Assembly: GCA_016196755.1 (NCBI GenBank)
Contig: JACPXC010000030.1
Coordinates: 1 to 64,000 of the forward strand
Direction: 5' to 3'
DNA: 64,000 nucleotides
Source: Elusimicrobiota bacterium
Lineage (GTDB): Bacteria; Elusimicrobiota; Elusimicrobia; UBA1565
The position numbers were made by a program, and so were the translations under genes. Numbering within the stretch: the stretch's first letter is position 1; the number at the start of each line of letters is the position of its first letter. The notes beneath the pieces were generated by a model that was not told where the DNA came from, made no database searches, and saw only the letters and a list, made by a program, of their open reading frames with translations. This document shows positions 193-53,980 of this stretch, piece after piece.

Positions 193-1206
193 ATGCGCAT
201 TCTCGTCACCGGCGGCGCCGGCTTCATCGGCAGCCACTGCACCCTGGACCTCCTCAAGGGCGGCCACGACGTCCTCTCGGTCGACAACCACTCCAACAGC
301 TCCCCCGAGTCCCTGCGCCGCGTCGCCAAGCTGGCCGCCCGCGAGGCCGAGGCCGTCGAAGGCGACATCCGCGACCGCGCCCACCTCCTGAGCCTGTTCC
401 GGCGCTTCACCCCCGACGCCGTCATCCACTTCGCCGGCCTCAAAGCGGTCGGCGAATCCGTGGAAAAGCCGCTCGAGTACTTCGACAACAACCTAGTCGG
501 CACCAACATGCTGCTCTCGGTCATGCGCGAGACCGCCTGCCGGAACCTGGTGTTCTCCTCCTCGGCCACCGTCTACGGCACCCCCGAGAAAAACCCCATC
601 CCCGAGGACCACCCGCGCGGGGCGCTCAACCCCTACGGGCGCACCAAGCTCGTCATCGAGGACATGTGCCGCGACCTGGCCGGCTCCGAGGCGGGGTGGC
701 ACATCGCCCTCTTGCGCTACTTCAACCCCGTCGGCGCCCACGAGTCCGGCGAGATCGGCGAGGACCCGCGCGGGACGCCCAACAACCTGATGCCCTACGT
801 CATGCAGACCGCCGTGGGCCGGCGGCCGCACGTCAACGTCTTCGGGACCGACTACGCCACCCCCGACGGCACCGGGGTGCGCGACTACATCCACGTCGTC
901 GACCTGGCCGCCGCCCACGTGGCGGCCCTAGAGCGGCTCGACTCTTTCGAAGGCGCGGAGGCGGTCAACCTCGGCACCGGGCGCGGCTACTCCGTGCTCG
1001 AGGTCCTGGCCGCGGCCTCCAAGGCCGCCGGCAAGGATATCCCCTTCAAGCTCCGCCCGCGCCGGGCGGGGGACGCGGCGGCGGCCGTGGCCGACCCCTC
1101 GCTGGCCAAGACCAGGCTCGGCTGGACCGCCAAGCGCGGCCTGGGCGACATCTGCGCCGACCATTGGCGCTGGCAGGAGCGCAACCCCGCGGGCTACGGC
1201 GCGTGA
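193..1206 (+). CDS. galE: UDP-glucose 4-epimerase
   Basis: GalE interconverts UDP-glucose and UDP-galactose in the cytoplasm with tightly bound NAD, feeding surface polysaccharide synthesis. The 337-residue length is normal for the family. The Rossmann motif GGAGFIGSH is at residues 7-15, the FSSSATVYG segment with the catalytic serine is near residue 122, and the YGRTK segment holds the Tyr148/Lys152 pair of extended short-chain dehydrogenases. The C-terminal substrate region runs through VRDYIHVVDLA and the NLGTGRGYSVLEV segment. No SD sequence precedes the ATG; a TAATAT box ends 10 bases upstream. The stop codon overlaps the GTG of the next gene (GTGA), so the two are probably translationally coupled. 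Confidence 0.95.
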   Translation: MRILVTGGAGFIGSHCTLDLLKGGHDVLSVDNHSNSSPESLRRVAKLAAREAEAVEGDIRDRAHLLSLFRRFTPDAVIHFAGLKAVGESVEKPLEYFDNNLVGTNMLLSVMRETACRNLVFSSSATVYGTPEKNPIPEDHPRGALNPYGRTKLVIEDMCRDLAGSEAGWHIALLRYFNPVGAHESGEIGEDPRGTPNNLMPYVMQTAVGRRPHVNVFGTDYATPDGTGVRDYIHVVDLAAAHVAALERLDSFEGAEAVNLGTGRGYSVLEVLAAASKAAGKDIPFKLRPRRAGDAAAAVADPSLAKTRLGWTAKRGLGDICADHWRWQERNPAGYGA

Positions 1207-2159
1207 GGCGGCTCGGCCGCCCCCATGCCCTCGGAGGCGGCACTTCCTCGCGATATCGCTCGGTCGGCCCCATCGCCCTGGCGGCGCTGGCCGCCTGCGC
1301 AACGCCCCAGCCCGTCTATCAGGCCGACGACCCCTTGTCGGGGGCTCGACCCGCCCGACTCTTCTACGAGACCGGAACCTCCTCCGGGACGGCCGCGTTC
1401 ACCGCCGTCCTGCCGCTCGACTACACCCCCTCCGACGGGATCCTGCTCGCGCCGGTGGTCGCCGTCCTGCGCCGCGATACCGCCTTCGGCGAGGCGGCGA
1501 TCGTCGTGGAGCGCTATGGCGAGCAATGGGGCTCGGCGCTCGGCCGCGAGGAGTTCGCGGCCCACCTCGTCGAGGGGCGCGCCCCGGCGCCGACCCAGCA
1601 CCAGGCCGGCGGCCGGGCCGTGACGGCCTACCATGACCTGCGCTTCACCCTCAGCGAGCGGCGCATCGACGCCGACGACCCCTGGGCCGGCGTCCTGGGG
1701 CGCCGGATCGAGCCGCCCAAGCTCAGCCCCATGGAGGGCCGGCGCTTCCCGGTGGGCGGCGAGGCCTACCGCCTGCACCGCTGCCGCCGCATGGGGGCGT
1801 GGGACGTGCTGGCCGACTACCGGCGCGCCCAGGCCGCGGGCCTGCTCGAGGCCTTCCGACAGACCCACCCGCCCGAGGAGCGGCGGCTGGTCTCGACCTG
1901 CTTTGGCAGCGCCGTGGCCCACGCGGTCAGCGAGGGACGGCCCGTGCCGCCCATCCCCAAGCCCTCGAGCGGCCGCCTGCGCGCGATGGCGCGCCAGGAA
2001 TGGGAGCGCGGCGTCGTCACGCGCCAAGAGCGCGAGTGCGTCGTCCTCCTCGACGTGCCCGGCGGGTTCTGGGCCCTGCGCCTGCGCGCCCCCGAGGCGG
2101 GCTTCCCCGCCGAGCACGCGGGGTTTCTGGCCTTCGCGGCCGGCTTTAAACCTTCCTAG
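1203..2159 (+). CDS. Putative lipoprotein of unknown function
   Basis: The 318-residue product starts at the GTG that overlaps the galE stop. A hydrophobic stretch (GPIALAALAAC) ends in a lipobox with Cys32, so it is probably lipidated and exported. The mature part has no domain I recognise; it alternates short beta-type segments with charged loops and ends LAFAAGFKPS. The basic n-region of the signal peptide (about residues 9-21) is encoded by a copy of the 51-bp repeat also found in jag and murD, here in a different reading frame. The last 25 codons and the stop are repeated downstream at 3482-3556. Confidence 0.65.
   Translation: MRRLGRPHALGGGTSSRYRSVGPIALAALAACATPQPVYQADDPLSGARPARLFYETGTSSGTAAFTAVLPLDYTPSDGILLAPVVAVLRRDTAFGEAAIVVERYGEQWGSALGREEFAAHLVEGRAPAPTQHQAGGRAVTAYHDLRFTLSERRIDADDPWAGVLGRRIEPPKLSPMEGRRFPVGGEAYRLHRCRRMGAWDVLADYRRAQAAGLLEAFRQTHPPEERRLVSTCFGSAVAHAVSEGRPVPPIPKPSSGRLRAMARQEWERGVVTRQERECVVLLDVPGGFWALRLRAPEAGFPAEHAGFLAFAAGFKPS
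1216..1266 (+). repeat. 51-bp dispersed repeat, copy 1 (in lipoprotein signal peptide)
   Basis: This stretch matches 26424-26474 in jag and 42619-42669 in murD with only about 3 differences per pair over 51 bases. The core reads GGCACTTCCTCGCGAT. In this copy the repeat is translated in another frame than in the other two, giving ALGGGTSSRYRSV instead of SEAALPRD.ARS. The genes are unrelated, so common ancestry of the proteins cannot explain the similarity. Confidence 0.85.
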
Positions 2160-20412: not shown

Positions 20413-22392
<1,980 letters not shown>

Positions 22393-26081: not shown

Positions 26082-27047
26082 ATGAAAGAGATCGAATGCG
26101 AAGGAAAGACCGTGACGATCGCCGTCGAGGCCGGCCTGCGCGACATCGGCCTGCGCCGCGACCAGGTCGAGGTGCAGGTGCTCGATGAGGGCTCCGCCGG
26201 CATCCTCGGCTTCGGCATGAAGCCCGCCCGCGTGCTGGTCCGCGAGAAGCGCTGGGGCGAGGCCTCGGCCGCTCCGTCCCCGTCGGCGCCGTCGGCCTCG
26301 GCCTCCAAGCCCTCGCCGCGCGCCCGCCTCTCCTCCGCCCGCCCCGCGCGCGCGCCGCGCCCCGCGGCCCGCGCGCCGCGCCCCGAGCCCAAGCCGGAGC
26401 AGCCCCGGCCCGAGCCCCAGCCCGCCGCCCCCAAGACCTCGGAGGCGGCACTTCCTCGCGATAACGCTCGGTCGCCTCGGCGCGAAGAACCGCGCCGAGA
26501 AGATCGCCGCCCGGCCCGCGCCGAGAGCGCCCCGCGGCCCCGACGCGACGTCGAGCGGCCGCCGCGCGGCCCCGAGGACGGCCCGAAGGCGGCTTCCGCC
26601 GCGCGCACCGTGCTCTCGGAGCTGCTCGGTCTCGCCGGCCTGCACGACGTCGTCGTCAGCGCCAACTGGGACGCCGAACAGGATCGTGTCCAAGCCGAGG
26701 TGAAGACAGCCGACGCCGCCTTCGTGCTCGGCAAGGACGGCCGGACCCTCGAGGCCCTGCAGTTCCTCACGACGATCATCGTAGGACGCCGCACCGGGGC
26801 CCCCTCCGCCGTCCAGGTCGAATGCCAGGGCTGGTGGAAGCAGATCGAGGAGAGGCTCGGACAGGAAGCCGACCGCGCCGCCGGCGAAGTCTCGCAAACC
26901 GGGAAGCCATTCCGCTTCGAGCCGATGGACCCCGCGATGCGCCGCCTGGTTCACCGACGCCTGGCCGCCCACCCCGACGTCGAGACGGCGTCGGAGGGAG
27001 AGGGCTCCTGGCGCAAGGTCGTCGTGCGCCTCAAGCGCCAGGACTGA
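26082..27047 (+). CDS. jag: RNA-binding protein Jag/KhpB with inserted repeat peptide
   Basis: The 321-residue protein has the Jag N-terminal domain (about 1-55), a long disordered Pro/Ala/Arg linker (about 60-170), a KH domain (about 180-255) and an R3H domain (about 260-320; FRFEPMDPAMRRLVHRRLA). The family binds RNA and affects cell envelope and division. Within the linker, residues 119-131 (TSEAALPRDNARS) come from a copy of the 51-bp repeat, in the same frame as in murD. GGAGAG upstream of the ATG is a normal ribosome-binding site. Gene order yidC-jag-mnmE is classical. Confidence 0.92.
   Translation: MKEIECEGKTVTIAVEAGLRDIGLRRDQVEVQVLDEGSAGILGFGMKPARVLVREKRWGEASAAPSPSAPSASASKPSPRARLSSARPARAPRPAARAPRPEPKPEQPRPEPQPAAPKTSEAALPRDNARSPRREEPRREDRRPARAESAPRPRRDVERPPRGPEDGPKAASAARTVLSELLGLAGLHDVVVSANWDAEQDRVQAEVKTADAAFVLGKDGRTLEALQFLTTIIVGRRTGAPSAVQVECQGWWKQIEERLGQEADRAAGEVSQTGKPFRFEPMDPAMRRLVHRRLAAHPDVETASEGEGSWRKVVVRLKRQD
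26424..26474 (+). repeat. 51-bp dispersed repeat, copy 2 (in jag linker)
   Basis: This copy lies in the disordered linker of Jag and is read as PK-TSEAALPRDNARS. It differs from copy 1 (1216-1266) and copy 3 (42619-42669) at about three bases each. Insertion here would leave the KH and R3H domains intact. Confidence 0.85.
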
Positions 27048-41456: not shown

Positions 41457-42541
41457 TGTTCTACCTCCTCTACGACCTGCGCCACCTCTGGAGCCCGCTC
41501 AACGTCTTCCGCTACATCTCGGTGCGCGCCGGCGGGGCCGCGCTGACGGCGCTGGTCCTGTCCCTGCTCCTGGGGCCGCCCCTGATCGCCTGGCTGCGCT
41601 CCAAGAAGGTCGGCCAGTCCCAGCGCAAGGACGGCCCGGCCTCGCACCTCGCGAAGGAAGGCACGCCCACCATGGGCGGGGTCCTCATCGTCCTGGCGGT
41701 CGTCGCCTCGGCCCTCCTGTGGATGCGCCTCGACGTGCGCTTCACCTGGATCCTGCTGTTTGTCACCGCCGCGCTGACCGCGGTGGGCTTCTGGGACGAC
41801 TGGCTCAAGCTCATCCGCAAGGACCCCAAGGGCGCGCCGTCGCGCGCCAAGTTCGCGGTCCAGATCGGCACCGCCCTCCTCGTCGTGGGCTACCTGGCCG
41901 TCGACCCGCCCAGCGCCGGACACTCCACCGCCCTGCTCGTCCCCTACGTGCCCAACCGCTACGTCGAGCTGGGGTCTCTCTACTACGTCCTCGCCGTGCT
42001 CATGCTCGTCGGCGCCTCCAACGCCGTCAACCTCACCGACGGGTTGGACGGCCTCGCCGCCGGCAGCACGATCTTCTGCGCCATCGCCTACGGCGTCTTC
42101 GCGTACATGTCGGGCAACGCGAAATATTCGGGCTATCTGCTTCTCCCCTTCGTGCCCGGGGCCGGCGAGATCACCATCTTCCTGGCCGGCCTGATCGGGG
42201 CCTGCCTGGGATTCCTATGGTTCAACTCGTACCCGGCGCAGATCTTCATGGGCGACACCTCCTCGCTCTTTATCGGCGGGGTCATCGCGGCCGTGGCGCT
42301 CTGCGTCAAGCAGGAGCTGCTCCTGCCGATCGTGGGCGGGGTGTTCCTGGTCGAGACCCTCTCGGTCATCATCCAGATGGCCTCCTACAAGCTGCGCGGC
42401 GGCAAGCGCGTCTTCCGGATGGCCCCGCTCCACCACCATTTCGAGCTGGGCGGCATCGCCGAGCCTAAAGTGACGGTCCGGTTCTGGATCGTCAGCATCG
42501 TGCTGATGCTGGCCGCGCTGGCCTCGCTCAAGATCCGCTGA
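41456..42541 (+). CDS. mraY: Phospho-MurNAc-pentapeptide transferase MraY
   Basis: MraY moves phospho-MurNAc-pentapeptide onto undecaprenyl phosphate, making lipid I in the inner membrane. The 361-residue, ten-helix protein has KEGTPTMGGVLI, GFWDDWLKLIRK (the acidic pair), NAVNLTDGLDGLAAG and the HHHFE motif (APLHHHFELGGIAE). The normally GDTGSL-like motif reads GDTSSLFIGG, with Ser for the usual Gly. Stop and start bases are shared with murF and murD. Confidence 0.96.
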   Translation: MFYLLYDLRHLWSPLNVFRYISVRAGGAALTALVLSLLLGPPLIAWLRSKKVGQSQRKDGPASHLAKEGTPTMGGVLIVLAVVASALLWMRLDVRFTWILLFVTAALTAVGFWDDWLKLIRKDPKGAPSRAKFAVQIGTALLVVGYLAVDPPSAGHSTALLVPYVPNRYVELGSLYYVLAVLMLVGASNAVNLTDGLDGLAAGSTIFCAIAYGVFAYMSGNAKYSGYLLLPFVPGAGEITIFLAGLIGACLGFLWFNSYPAQIFMGDTSSLFIGGVIAAVALCVKQELLLPIVGGVFLVETLSVIIQMASYKLRGGKRVFRMAPLHHHFELGGIAEPKVTVRFWIVSIVLMLAALASLKIR

Positions 42542-44046
42542 TGAAGAAGATGGCGAAGAAAGCCCCCAAGAAGGCCAAGACAGCCCGCCCCCGCAAGCCC
42601 AAGGCCCCGCCGCCCTCCGCCGCCCCCAAGGCCTCGGAAGCGGCACTTCCTCGCGATAGCGCTCGGTCGGACCGCTTCCTGCCCGCGGTCTGGAAGCGCG
42701 GTCCGGCCGCGGTGCTGGGCATGGGCCGCTCCGGGCTGGCCGCGGCCAAGCTCCTGGCCAAGAAGGGCTTCAAGGTCCTGCTCTCCGACGAGCGCCCGCG
42801 CAAGGCTCTGCGCGCCGCCGCGGCAAAGCTCCCGGCCGGCGTCTCCTGGGAGGGCGGCGGGCATTCGGACCGCCTGCTCAAGTGCCGCTTCGCCGTGAAG
42901 AGCCCGGGCCTGCCCTCGCACGCCCCGGTGCTCGAGCGGCTCAAGGCGGCCGGCATCCCGGTCTTCAGCGAGCTCGAGGTGGCCCTGGCCTTCCTGCCCG
43001 CCGTCGAGACCGTGGCCGTCACCGGCACCAACGGCAAGACCACGACGGCCACGCTGACCGCCGCGGTGTTCAAGGCCGCCCGGCGCCGCGTGCACCTCTT
43101 GGGCAACGTCGGCGTGCCGGTCTGCGCGGCGGTCGCCGGCGTCAAGAAGGGCGACCTGCTGGTCCTGGAGACCTCGAGCTACCAGCTCGAGGACAGCCGG
43201 CGCTTCCTGCCCGAGGCCGCGGCCATCCTCAACCTCACGCCCGACCACCTCGACCACCACGGCGGGATGGAGGCCTACGCGGCCGCCAAACGCAGGGTCT
43301 TCGCCTGGATGGACCGCCGGCACTCCTGCGTGTTCAACGCCGACGACGCCGGCGTGGTCGCCATGGCGCGCTCCTGCCGCGGGCGCAAGCTCTTCTTCGG
43401 GCGCTCCCCGTCGACCATGACGGCGGCCTGGCCGGAGGGAGGGAAGATCCTCCTGCGCCTGCAGGGCTGGAAGAAGCCGGTGAAGCTCTCCCCGCCCAAG
43501 CTCCCCGGCGAGCACAACCTCCAGAACGCGATGGCCGCCGCCCTGCTCGGCGCCGCCCGCGGGGTCAAGCCCGAGGCCATCCAGAAGGCGTTCAAGGCCT
43601 TCAAGGGCGTGTCGCACCGGCTCGAGGACTGCGGCGTCCGCAAAGGCCTGGCCTGCGTCAACGACTCGAAGGCCACCAACGTCGACTCGACCTTGGTCGC
43701 GCTGGCCACCATGCCCCAGACCAAGACCACTTTGCTCATCCTCGGCGGACGGCCCAAGGCCGGGGGCTTCGCGGGCCTGCGCTCCCAGGTCGAGCGCCGG
43801 GTCAAGGCGGTCCTGAGCGTCGGCGAGGCCGCCGCGCGCGTCGAGACCGACCTGCAGGGCGCGGCCCACGTCTTCCCCTGCCAGACCCTCGAGAAGGCGG
43901 TCGAGGTGGCGTTTCAGATCGGGCTCAAGGGCGAGACCCTCCTGCTCTCCCCGGCCTGCGCCTCCTTCGACCAGTTCACCGACTACGAGCACCGCGGCCG
44001 GACGTTCAAGGAGCTCCTGGCCGTCCACGGGGGCAAGCCCAAGTGA
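42541..44046 (+). CDS. murD: UDP-MurNAc-L-alanine:D-glutamate ligase MurD with repeat-bearing extension
   Basis: MurD adds D-glutamate to UDP-MurNAc-L-Ala. The catalytic part starts near residue 55 (AAVLGMGRSGLAAAKLL) and has AVTGTNGKTTTATL, the SSYQLE and LTPDHLDHHG segments and a C-terminal CVNDSKATNVDSTLVAL. The 501-residue length exceeds the usual 440-460 because of a Lys/Pro/Ala-rich N-terminal extension of about 50 residues; its residues 31-43 (ASEAALPRDSARS) come from the 51-bp repeat. The extension is in frame with the ATG overlapping the mraY stop. Confidence 0.95.
   Translation: MKKMAKKAPKKAKTARPRKPKAPPPSAAPKASEAALPRDSARSDRFLPAVWKRGPAAVLGMGRSGLAAAKLLAKKGFKVLLSDERPRKALRAAAAKLPAGVSWEGGGHSDRLLKCRFAVKSPGLPSHAPVLERLKAAGIPVFSELEVALAFLPAVETVAVTGTNGKTTTATLTAAVFKAARRRVHLLGNVGVPVCAAVAGVKKGDLLVLETSSYQLEDSRRFLPEAAAILNLTPDHLDHHGGMEAYAAAKRRVFAWMDRRHSCVFNADDAGVVAMARSCRGRKLFFGRSPSTMTAAWPEGGKILLRLQGWKKPVKLSPPKLPGEHNLQNAMAAALLGAARGVKPEAIQKAFKAFKGVSHRLEDCGVRKGLACVNDSKATNVDSTLVALATMPQTKTTLLILGGRPKAGGFAGLRSQVERRVKAVLSVGEAAARVETDLQGAAHVFPCQTLEKAVEVAFQIGLKGETLLLSPACASFDQFTDYEHRGRTFKELLAVHGGKPK
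42619..42669 (+). repeat. 51-bp dispersed repeat, copy 3 (in murD N-terminal extension)
   Basis: This copy is read in the same frame as the jag copy, giving PK-ASEAALPRDSARS. A GGAAG..CTTCC inverted repeat (loop CGGCA) is visible inside, with a G-T pair in the other two copies. It sits in a basic extension ahead of the catalytic core. Confidence 0.85.
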
Positions 44047-53904: not shown

Positions 53905-53980
53905 GGGCGTGTAGCTCAGCTGGGAGAGCGCTACCTTCGCAAGGTAGAGGCCGCAGGTTCGATCCCTGTCACGTCCACCA
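53905..53980 (+). tRNA. tRNA-Ala, anticodon CGC
   Basis: The 76-base sequence folds as a complete cloverleaf: acceptor GGGCGTG with CACGTCC, D-stem GCTC/GAGC, anticodon stem CTACC/GGTAG with loop TTCGCAA, and T-arm GCAGG-TTCGATC-CCTGT. The anticodon CGC reads GCG (Ala), and the third acceptor pair is G-U, the main identity element of tRNA-Ala. The CCA end is encoded. It has its own promoter box and a terminator at 54002-54032. Confidence 0.97.

Follow-up and report, generated by a model that had tools for sequence, protein, structure and literature searches.

The stretch of DNA analysed here, a window of 64,000 nucleotides from an Elusimicrobiota bacterium (contig JACPXC010000030.1), carries one 51-bp repeat three times, always on the forward strand and each time within a gene (Table 1). 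The repeats lie where the original prediction, made on the window alone, had placed them, and its estimate of about 3 mismatches per pair is borne out by pairwise differences of 3, 3, and 4 over the 51 bases; the exact core common to all three copies is GGCACTTCCTCGCGAT. Pfam assigns Jag_N, KH, and R3H domains to one host gene and MurD domains to another, in agreement with the predicted jag and murD. As had also been proposed, the repeat is read in the same frame and gives the same peptide in both, as residues 115–131 of Jag and 27–43 of MurD, placed in a linker in the former and in an N-terminal extension in the latter.

Table 1. Copies of the 51-bp repeat in the window and the genes that contain them
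Feature	Positions	Strand	Hairpin 1	Hairpin 2	R1 (bits)	Description
Copy 1	1216..1266	+	1216-1241	1243-1266	60.3	In signal-peptide region of predicted lipoprotein gene
Copy 1 host	1203..2159	+				Predicted lipoprotein; GTG start overlaps galE stop; lipobox LAAC; no Pfam family
Copy 2	26424..26474	+	26424-26449	26451-26474	55.7	17 codons, AAPKTSEAALPRDNARS
Copy 2 host	26082..27047	+				jag/khpB (Jag_N, KH, R3H); insert after Jag_N in Pro/Arg/Ala-rich linker
Copy 3	42619..42669	+	42619-42644	42646-42669	53.2	17 codons, AAPKASEAALPRDSARS
Copy 3 host	42541..44046	+				murD; insert before MurD N domain, in N-terminal extension

Copy 1 is in frame as well, but its frame differs from that of jag and murD, translation from the GTG start at 1203 giving MRRLGRPHALGGGTSSRYRSVGPIALAALAAC. 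Without the 51 bp the predicted lipoprotein would begin MRRLGPIALAALAAC, which, to judge from the residues alone, is an ordinary lipoprotein signal. In most copies the frame used by copy 1 is closed by a TAG or TAA stop codon (ATAG or ATAA); copy 1 has TAT (ATAT) at this point, a variant found in 4 of the 69 copies of the genome described below. No Rfam family for the element was matched in the window, where the sole match at the gathering threshold was a tRNA; a tRNA gene lies at 53905–53977.

Within the window alone, the occurrence of a 16-bp core of the repeat is borderline when compared with shuffled sequence. Across the organism's own assembly (4.59 Mb in 67 contigs) the exact 16-bp core occurs 58 times, and a 28-bp core searched with up to 3 mismatches gives 69 matches, against 0 for a reversed-pattern control; a chance origin is therefore excluded, and the repeat is not confined to three fortuitous places. 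The copies, about one per 66 kb, match over the full 51 bp and differ from their consensus at a mean of 3.2 of 51 positions. More than 90% are intragenic, 63 of the 69 lying in frame inside genes. By a codon model, 34 copies are in the sense orientation in frame 0, 29 are antisense in frame 1, and 6 are elsewhere, so that each orientation uses essentially one of three possible frames, giving the peptide AAPxASEAALPRDSARS in the sense orientation (34 copies) and DRALSRGSAASEALGAA in the opposite one (29 copies). The six remaining copies include some that are open in another frame, such as copy 1, and some that lie at the ends of genes or ahead of start codons. The frames were called with a codon-usage model for which the window served as training set, and protein homology supports the calls at 17 sites. 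Across Elusimicrobiota the element sometimes stands in tandem, the spacing being exactly one unit: 51 bp, or 54 bp at one locus (L086). At a locus of the own genome (L027, contig C37 near 286660) the halves are reversed, hairpin 2 preceding hairpin 1, and the unit looks circularly permuted, as if derived from a circle or from a trimmed tandem dimer.

That the repeat is an insertion is shown by comparison with orthologues. The murD genes of two species of the same genus (G001 and G002) lack exactly 51 bp, the site reading CCGCCGCCCTCC[51]GACCGCTTC in the genome under study and CCGCCGCCCTCCGACCGCTTC in G002, and ileS of G001 likewise lacks exactly 51 bp. The peptide is missing from the jag orthologues of G001, G002, and G004, where the linker is too variable for an exact boundary to be drawn. 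Queries made of joined flanks found same-genus orthologues for 15 hosts, and the element was common to the corresponding site in only one of these, L005 compared with G002; most of the other sites lie in fast-evolving loops, several of them variable in length, and the exact boundaries rest on the two clean sites. No copy was detected in G001 even when the 28-bp core was allowed as many as 3 mismatches. The original prediction would have been refuted by a peptide conserved at the same place in distant orthologues of jag and murD, or by a repeat limited to three chance occurrences, and neither was found in the comparisons made. In a same-genus orthologue the L005 site carries a different, CCCTCTCCCGCAAGCGGGAGAGGG-like palindrome (L192 and L194, contig C512 of G001), which suggests a hotspot that tolerates repeats of several families. 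In a UvrD/PcrA-like helicase gene the insertion is older and has been inherited vertically: two species of a single genus carry the element at the same position (L100 in G048 and L232 in G017), and it has diverged between them about as much as its flanks.

The host proteins include MurD, Jag, isoleucyl- and arginyl-tRNA synthetases (IleRS and ArgRS), DnaG, and GlgA. Some inserts lie in linkers, as in the C-terminal part of DnaG, between HisKA and HATPase of a histidine kinase, and between the two domains of GlgA; others follow signal peptides. Inserts are also present within Pfam domains, namely in IleRS, in the DALR domain of ArgRS, and in an amidohydrolase. When ArgRS, IleRS, and GlgA were aligned to chains of solved structures, the known proteins were gapped or unaligned at the insert. 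In one 6-phosphogluconolactonase-like ORF (L054, contig C67 near 141100) the element stands where orthologues have the catalytic GADGHTASLFPG segment; the product is probably inactive, as inferred from the missing segment, although the frame stays open.

Across Elusimicrobiota the element has the form GGCCGC-TTCC...GGAA-GCGGC followed by CACTTCCTCGCG-NNAN-CGCTCGGTCG, that is, two adjacent hairpins. Its consensus ends, GGCCGC and GGTCG, share only a weak terminal match of 5 bp (GRCCG). The folding energy of single copies is unexceptional relative to shuffled sequences, with one copy excepted, and the structural case rests on covariation. Of the cells at 15 pairs, 94% are paired, and double changes were found in 7 of the 15 pairs, with 16 such cells, compared with a shuffled mean of 3.6; none of 500 shuffles reached this level, and slid controls were lower. 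Double-sided variants include CGCG..CGC to CGCC..GGC, GGCAC..GGTCG to GGCAT..GGTCA, and CCGC..GCGG to CCCC..GGGG, while a change from TCGC..GCTC to GCGC..GCGC fills an internal mismatch. RNAalifold recovers the same two hairpins unprompted. Since MAFFT misaligned the 51-bp and 54-bp forms, the covariance model was built from 55-column rows only; it recovers the three window copies with E values of 1e-9 to 2e-8.

The flanks point to a preferred target. The sequence SCSGC follows the right end in 34 of 69 copies, compared with approximately 2.8% of coding positions, and no target-site duplication was detected, at most 5 of 69 copies matching outside the 51-mer at any length from 2 to 9. This target resembles the junction that two abutting elements would make, GGTCG|GCCGC, which fits the tandem copies at exactly 51 bp and 54 bp. 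Choice of target is not enough to account for the frame of the copies: SCSGC-like sites in coding DNA are spread over the phases and would place 43% of insertions in the two common frames, whereas 63 of 69 copies are found there (P about 4e-17), as are 33 of the 34 SCSGC-flanked copies (P about 2e-11). Codon phase itself shapes the flank sequences from which the null expectation was drawn; with this caveat, selection after insertion is the simplest reading of the bias.

When 84,980 prokaryote species were scanned for the exact pattern, the element turned up in Elusimicrobia only, and the named records with the pattern are all metagenome-assembled genomes of Elusimicrobia, mostly labelled groundwater. 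Matches to the covariance model are patchy: of 248 genomes in the phylum 18 gave them, and 17 of the 18 belong to a single order. Most units measure 51 or 54 bp, with 57 and 60 bp also seen; 51 bp is the length in the organism's own genus and 54 bp is most common elsewhere. Lengths that are not a multiple of three stand mostly, though not always, at positions without a clear coding signal. Searches of viral contigs, plasmids, and phages did not find the element.

Taken together, these observations make it very probable that the repeat is a lineage-specific, non-autonomous mobile palindromic element of Elusimicrobia, built of two adjacent hairpins and working in the manner of the Rickettsia palindromic elements (RPEs). 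That the element moves is an inference from its dispersal, the empty sites, and its patchy distribution; neither excision nor transposition was observed, and no transposase has been linked to it. We propose that the element is copied to new sites by an inferred factor acting in trans, which would most likely recognise the folded single strand. The left end, GCCGC, and the right end, GGTCG, would be inserted beside a target like (C)G|(G/C)C(C/G)GC without target duplication, and the element would land in genes in both orientations. With a length divisible by three and five open frames out of six, the element can enter a gene without necessarily destroying it. Selection would then purge insertions that bring a frame shift, a stop codon, or a harmful peptide, leaving presumably translated and nearly neutral, bland hydrophilic peptides in loops, linkers, N-terminal extensions, and signal peptides.

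The identity of the mover bears on one rival, which is compatible with a mobile element: that a RAYT/Y1 transposase of the IS200/IS605 type moves the repeat as a REP- or REPIN-like MITE, cutting the hairpins as single-stranded DNA. Hairpin ends, tandem units, and the lack of target duplication are consistent with single-strand transposition, and Y1_Tnp matches occur in 44 of 57 relatives and twelve times in the organism's own genome. Against this, a 97% complete genome (G008) with at least 23 R1 matches has no Y1_Tnp match at E<=0.001, and another (G033) has copies and no Y1. Only 2 of the 12 Y1 regions of the own genome contain a copy, 2–3 kb from the Y1 gene, and none is closely flanked by one. 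REPs are small high-copy hairpins, sometimes in tandem and presumed mobile in trans (PMC3733652); some are intragenic, but they are mostly extragenic; a GTAG or CGTC tag is present on most of them, and REPs of the GTAG kind flank RAYT genes (PMC3733652, PMC3116915). The Elusimicrobia element is largely intragenic, its consensus lacks both tags, and its copies do not closely flank the Y1 genes. We regard this rival as unlikely, while leaving it a real place. The twelve Y1_Tnp (PF01797) matches themselves (L133–L144) lie mostly in ORFs of some 280–390 codons.

A second rival holds that the insert is kept under positive selection because it is beneficial, either as a domesticated linker peptide or as a regulatory hairpin in mRNA or DNA. 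Paired-base conservation, frequent placement in linkers or after signal peptides, and the cross-species persistence in the helicase gene could be read in this way. Such a benefit is difficult to reconcile with nearly equal orientations (34 and 29) that encode different peptides, with sites that are mostly not common to same-genus species, with a shared helicase copy no better conserved than its flanks, and with a 6-phosphogluconolactonase-like host whose catalytic motif seems to be gone from the insertion site. We consider this explanation improbable. Still less probable is spread at the RNA level through a reverse transcriptase of the group II intron or retron type, or mobilisation by an IS110-family enzyme: the two-hairpin fold and the reverse transcriptase genes of G002, G007, and G033 would suit it, yet RVT_1 has no match in the own genome, G003, G008, or G030, and the IS110-type Transposase_20 is absent from G007, G008, and G030 and represented in the own genome by one broken remnant. 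Uptake-signal-like motifs can be frequent inside genes and frame-biased, but the idea that the repeat is such a motif, or a chromosome-organising one, arisen by point mutation rather than insertion, is scarcely tenable in view of the clean 51-bp gaps in orthologues, the full 51-bp copies, and a density of only about one per 66 kb.

Under the favoured reading of a mobile palindromic element moved in trans, the mover could still be an enzyme of the host, or a Y1 enzyme that some lineages have lost. As common movers, Y1_Tnp, RVT_1, and Transposase_20 were each rejected, every one of them being missing from some copy-rich genomes. An autonomous parent was not found, the loci examined (not whole genomes) containing no larger transposase-encoding element with the same ends, and the copies have no neighbour gene in common beyond orthologous hosts and recurring families. 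With no transposase in common, the means by which such elements move again becomes a question. A bolder version, which we advance only tentatively and would not yet favour, is that the element represents an undescribed protein-coding palindromic family, selfish and gene-adapted, whose multiple-of-three length and sequence have been shaped to offer a harmless frame in each orientation, and which spreads without any recognised transposase class.

The palindromic elements of Rickettsia (RPE-1 to RPE-3 especially) and Wolbachia are in-frame repeats in unrelated, often housekeeping genes, whose products keep the extra segment (PMC2229807, PMC10969869, PMC3767692). The likeness drawn to them in the original prediction is upheld: the Elusimicrobia element is likewise a short palindromic repeat in frame in many unrelated protein genes, with dispersed, polymorphic inserts that same-genus orthologues lack and hairpins with compensatory changes. 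The claim that the host differs also stands, the element having been found in Elusimicrobiota only; the claim that the sequence differs rests on length, ends, and architecture, without a comparison to RPE sequences. RPEs are approximately 100–150 bp long, have 12-bp terminal inverted repeats, and occur in obligate intracellular Alphaproteobacteria, whereas the Elusimicrobia element is mostly 51–60 bp, consists of side-by-side hairpins without long terminal inverted repeats, and resides within genes in both orientations with essentially one frame for each. It thus works like an RPE but is not filed as one, differing in length, ends, taxon, and architecture. RU-1 (ERIC), RU-2, and RU-3 of enterobacteria and other MITEs with intragenic copies are small, non-autonomous mobile sequences for which in-frame fusion with genes is possible (PMC2229807). 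Unlike the present element, MITEs end in inverted repeats and are usually accompanied by target duplications. No description of the repeat or its peptides was found in the literature searched, and as far as that search reached the element is undescribed.

In-frame palindromes have so far been treated as a peculiarity of the obligate intracellular Rickettsia and Wolbachia. Their presence in a separate phylum, and in a 4.6-Mb genome, suggests that mobile palindromes which live within genes arise independently, lengthening conserved, even essential proteins by a peptide. Several features could not be seen from the window alone, namely how many copies there are, that both orientations are used, the arrangement in two hairpins, and the presence of inserts within folded domains of essential enzymes. 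The inserts in IleRS, ArgRS, DnaG, GlgA, and MurD form a natural series in which tolerance of a 17-residue insertion is directly testable.

One further stretch of the window, 22341–22391, gave a weak match to the covariance model (15 bits, E 0.33). Its ends, CATTTCC...GCTCGGTCA, are like those of the GGCAT/GGTCA subfamily of G007, and it may be a decayed copy or a chance match.
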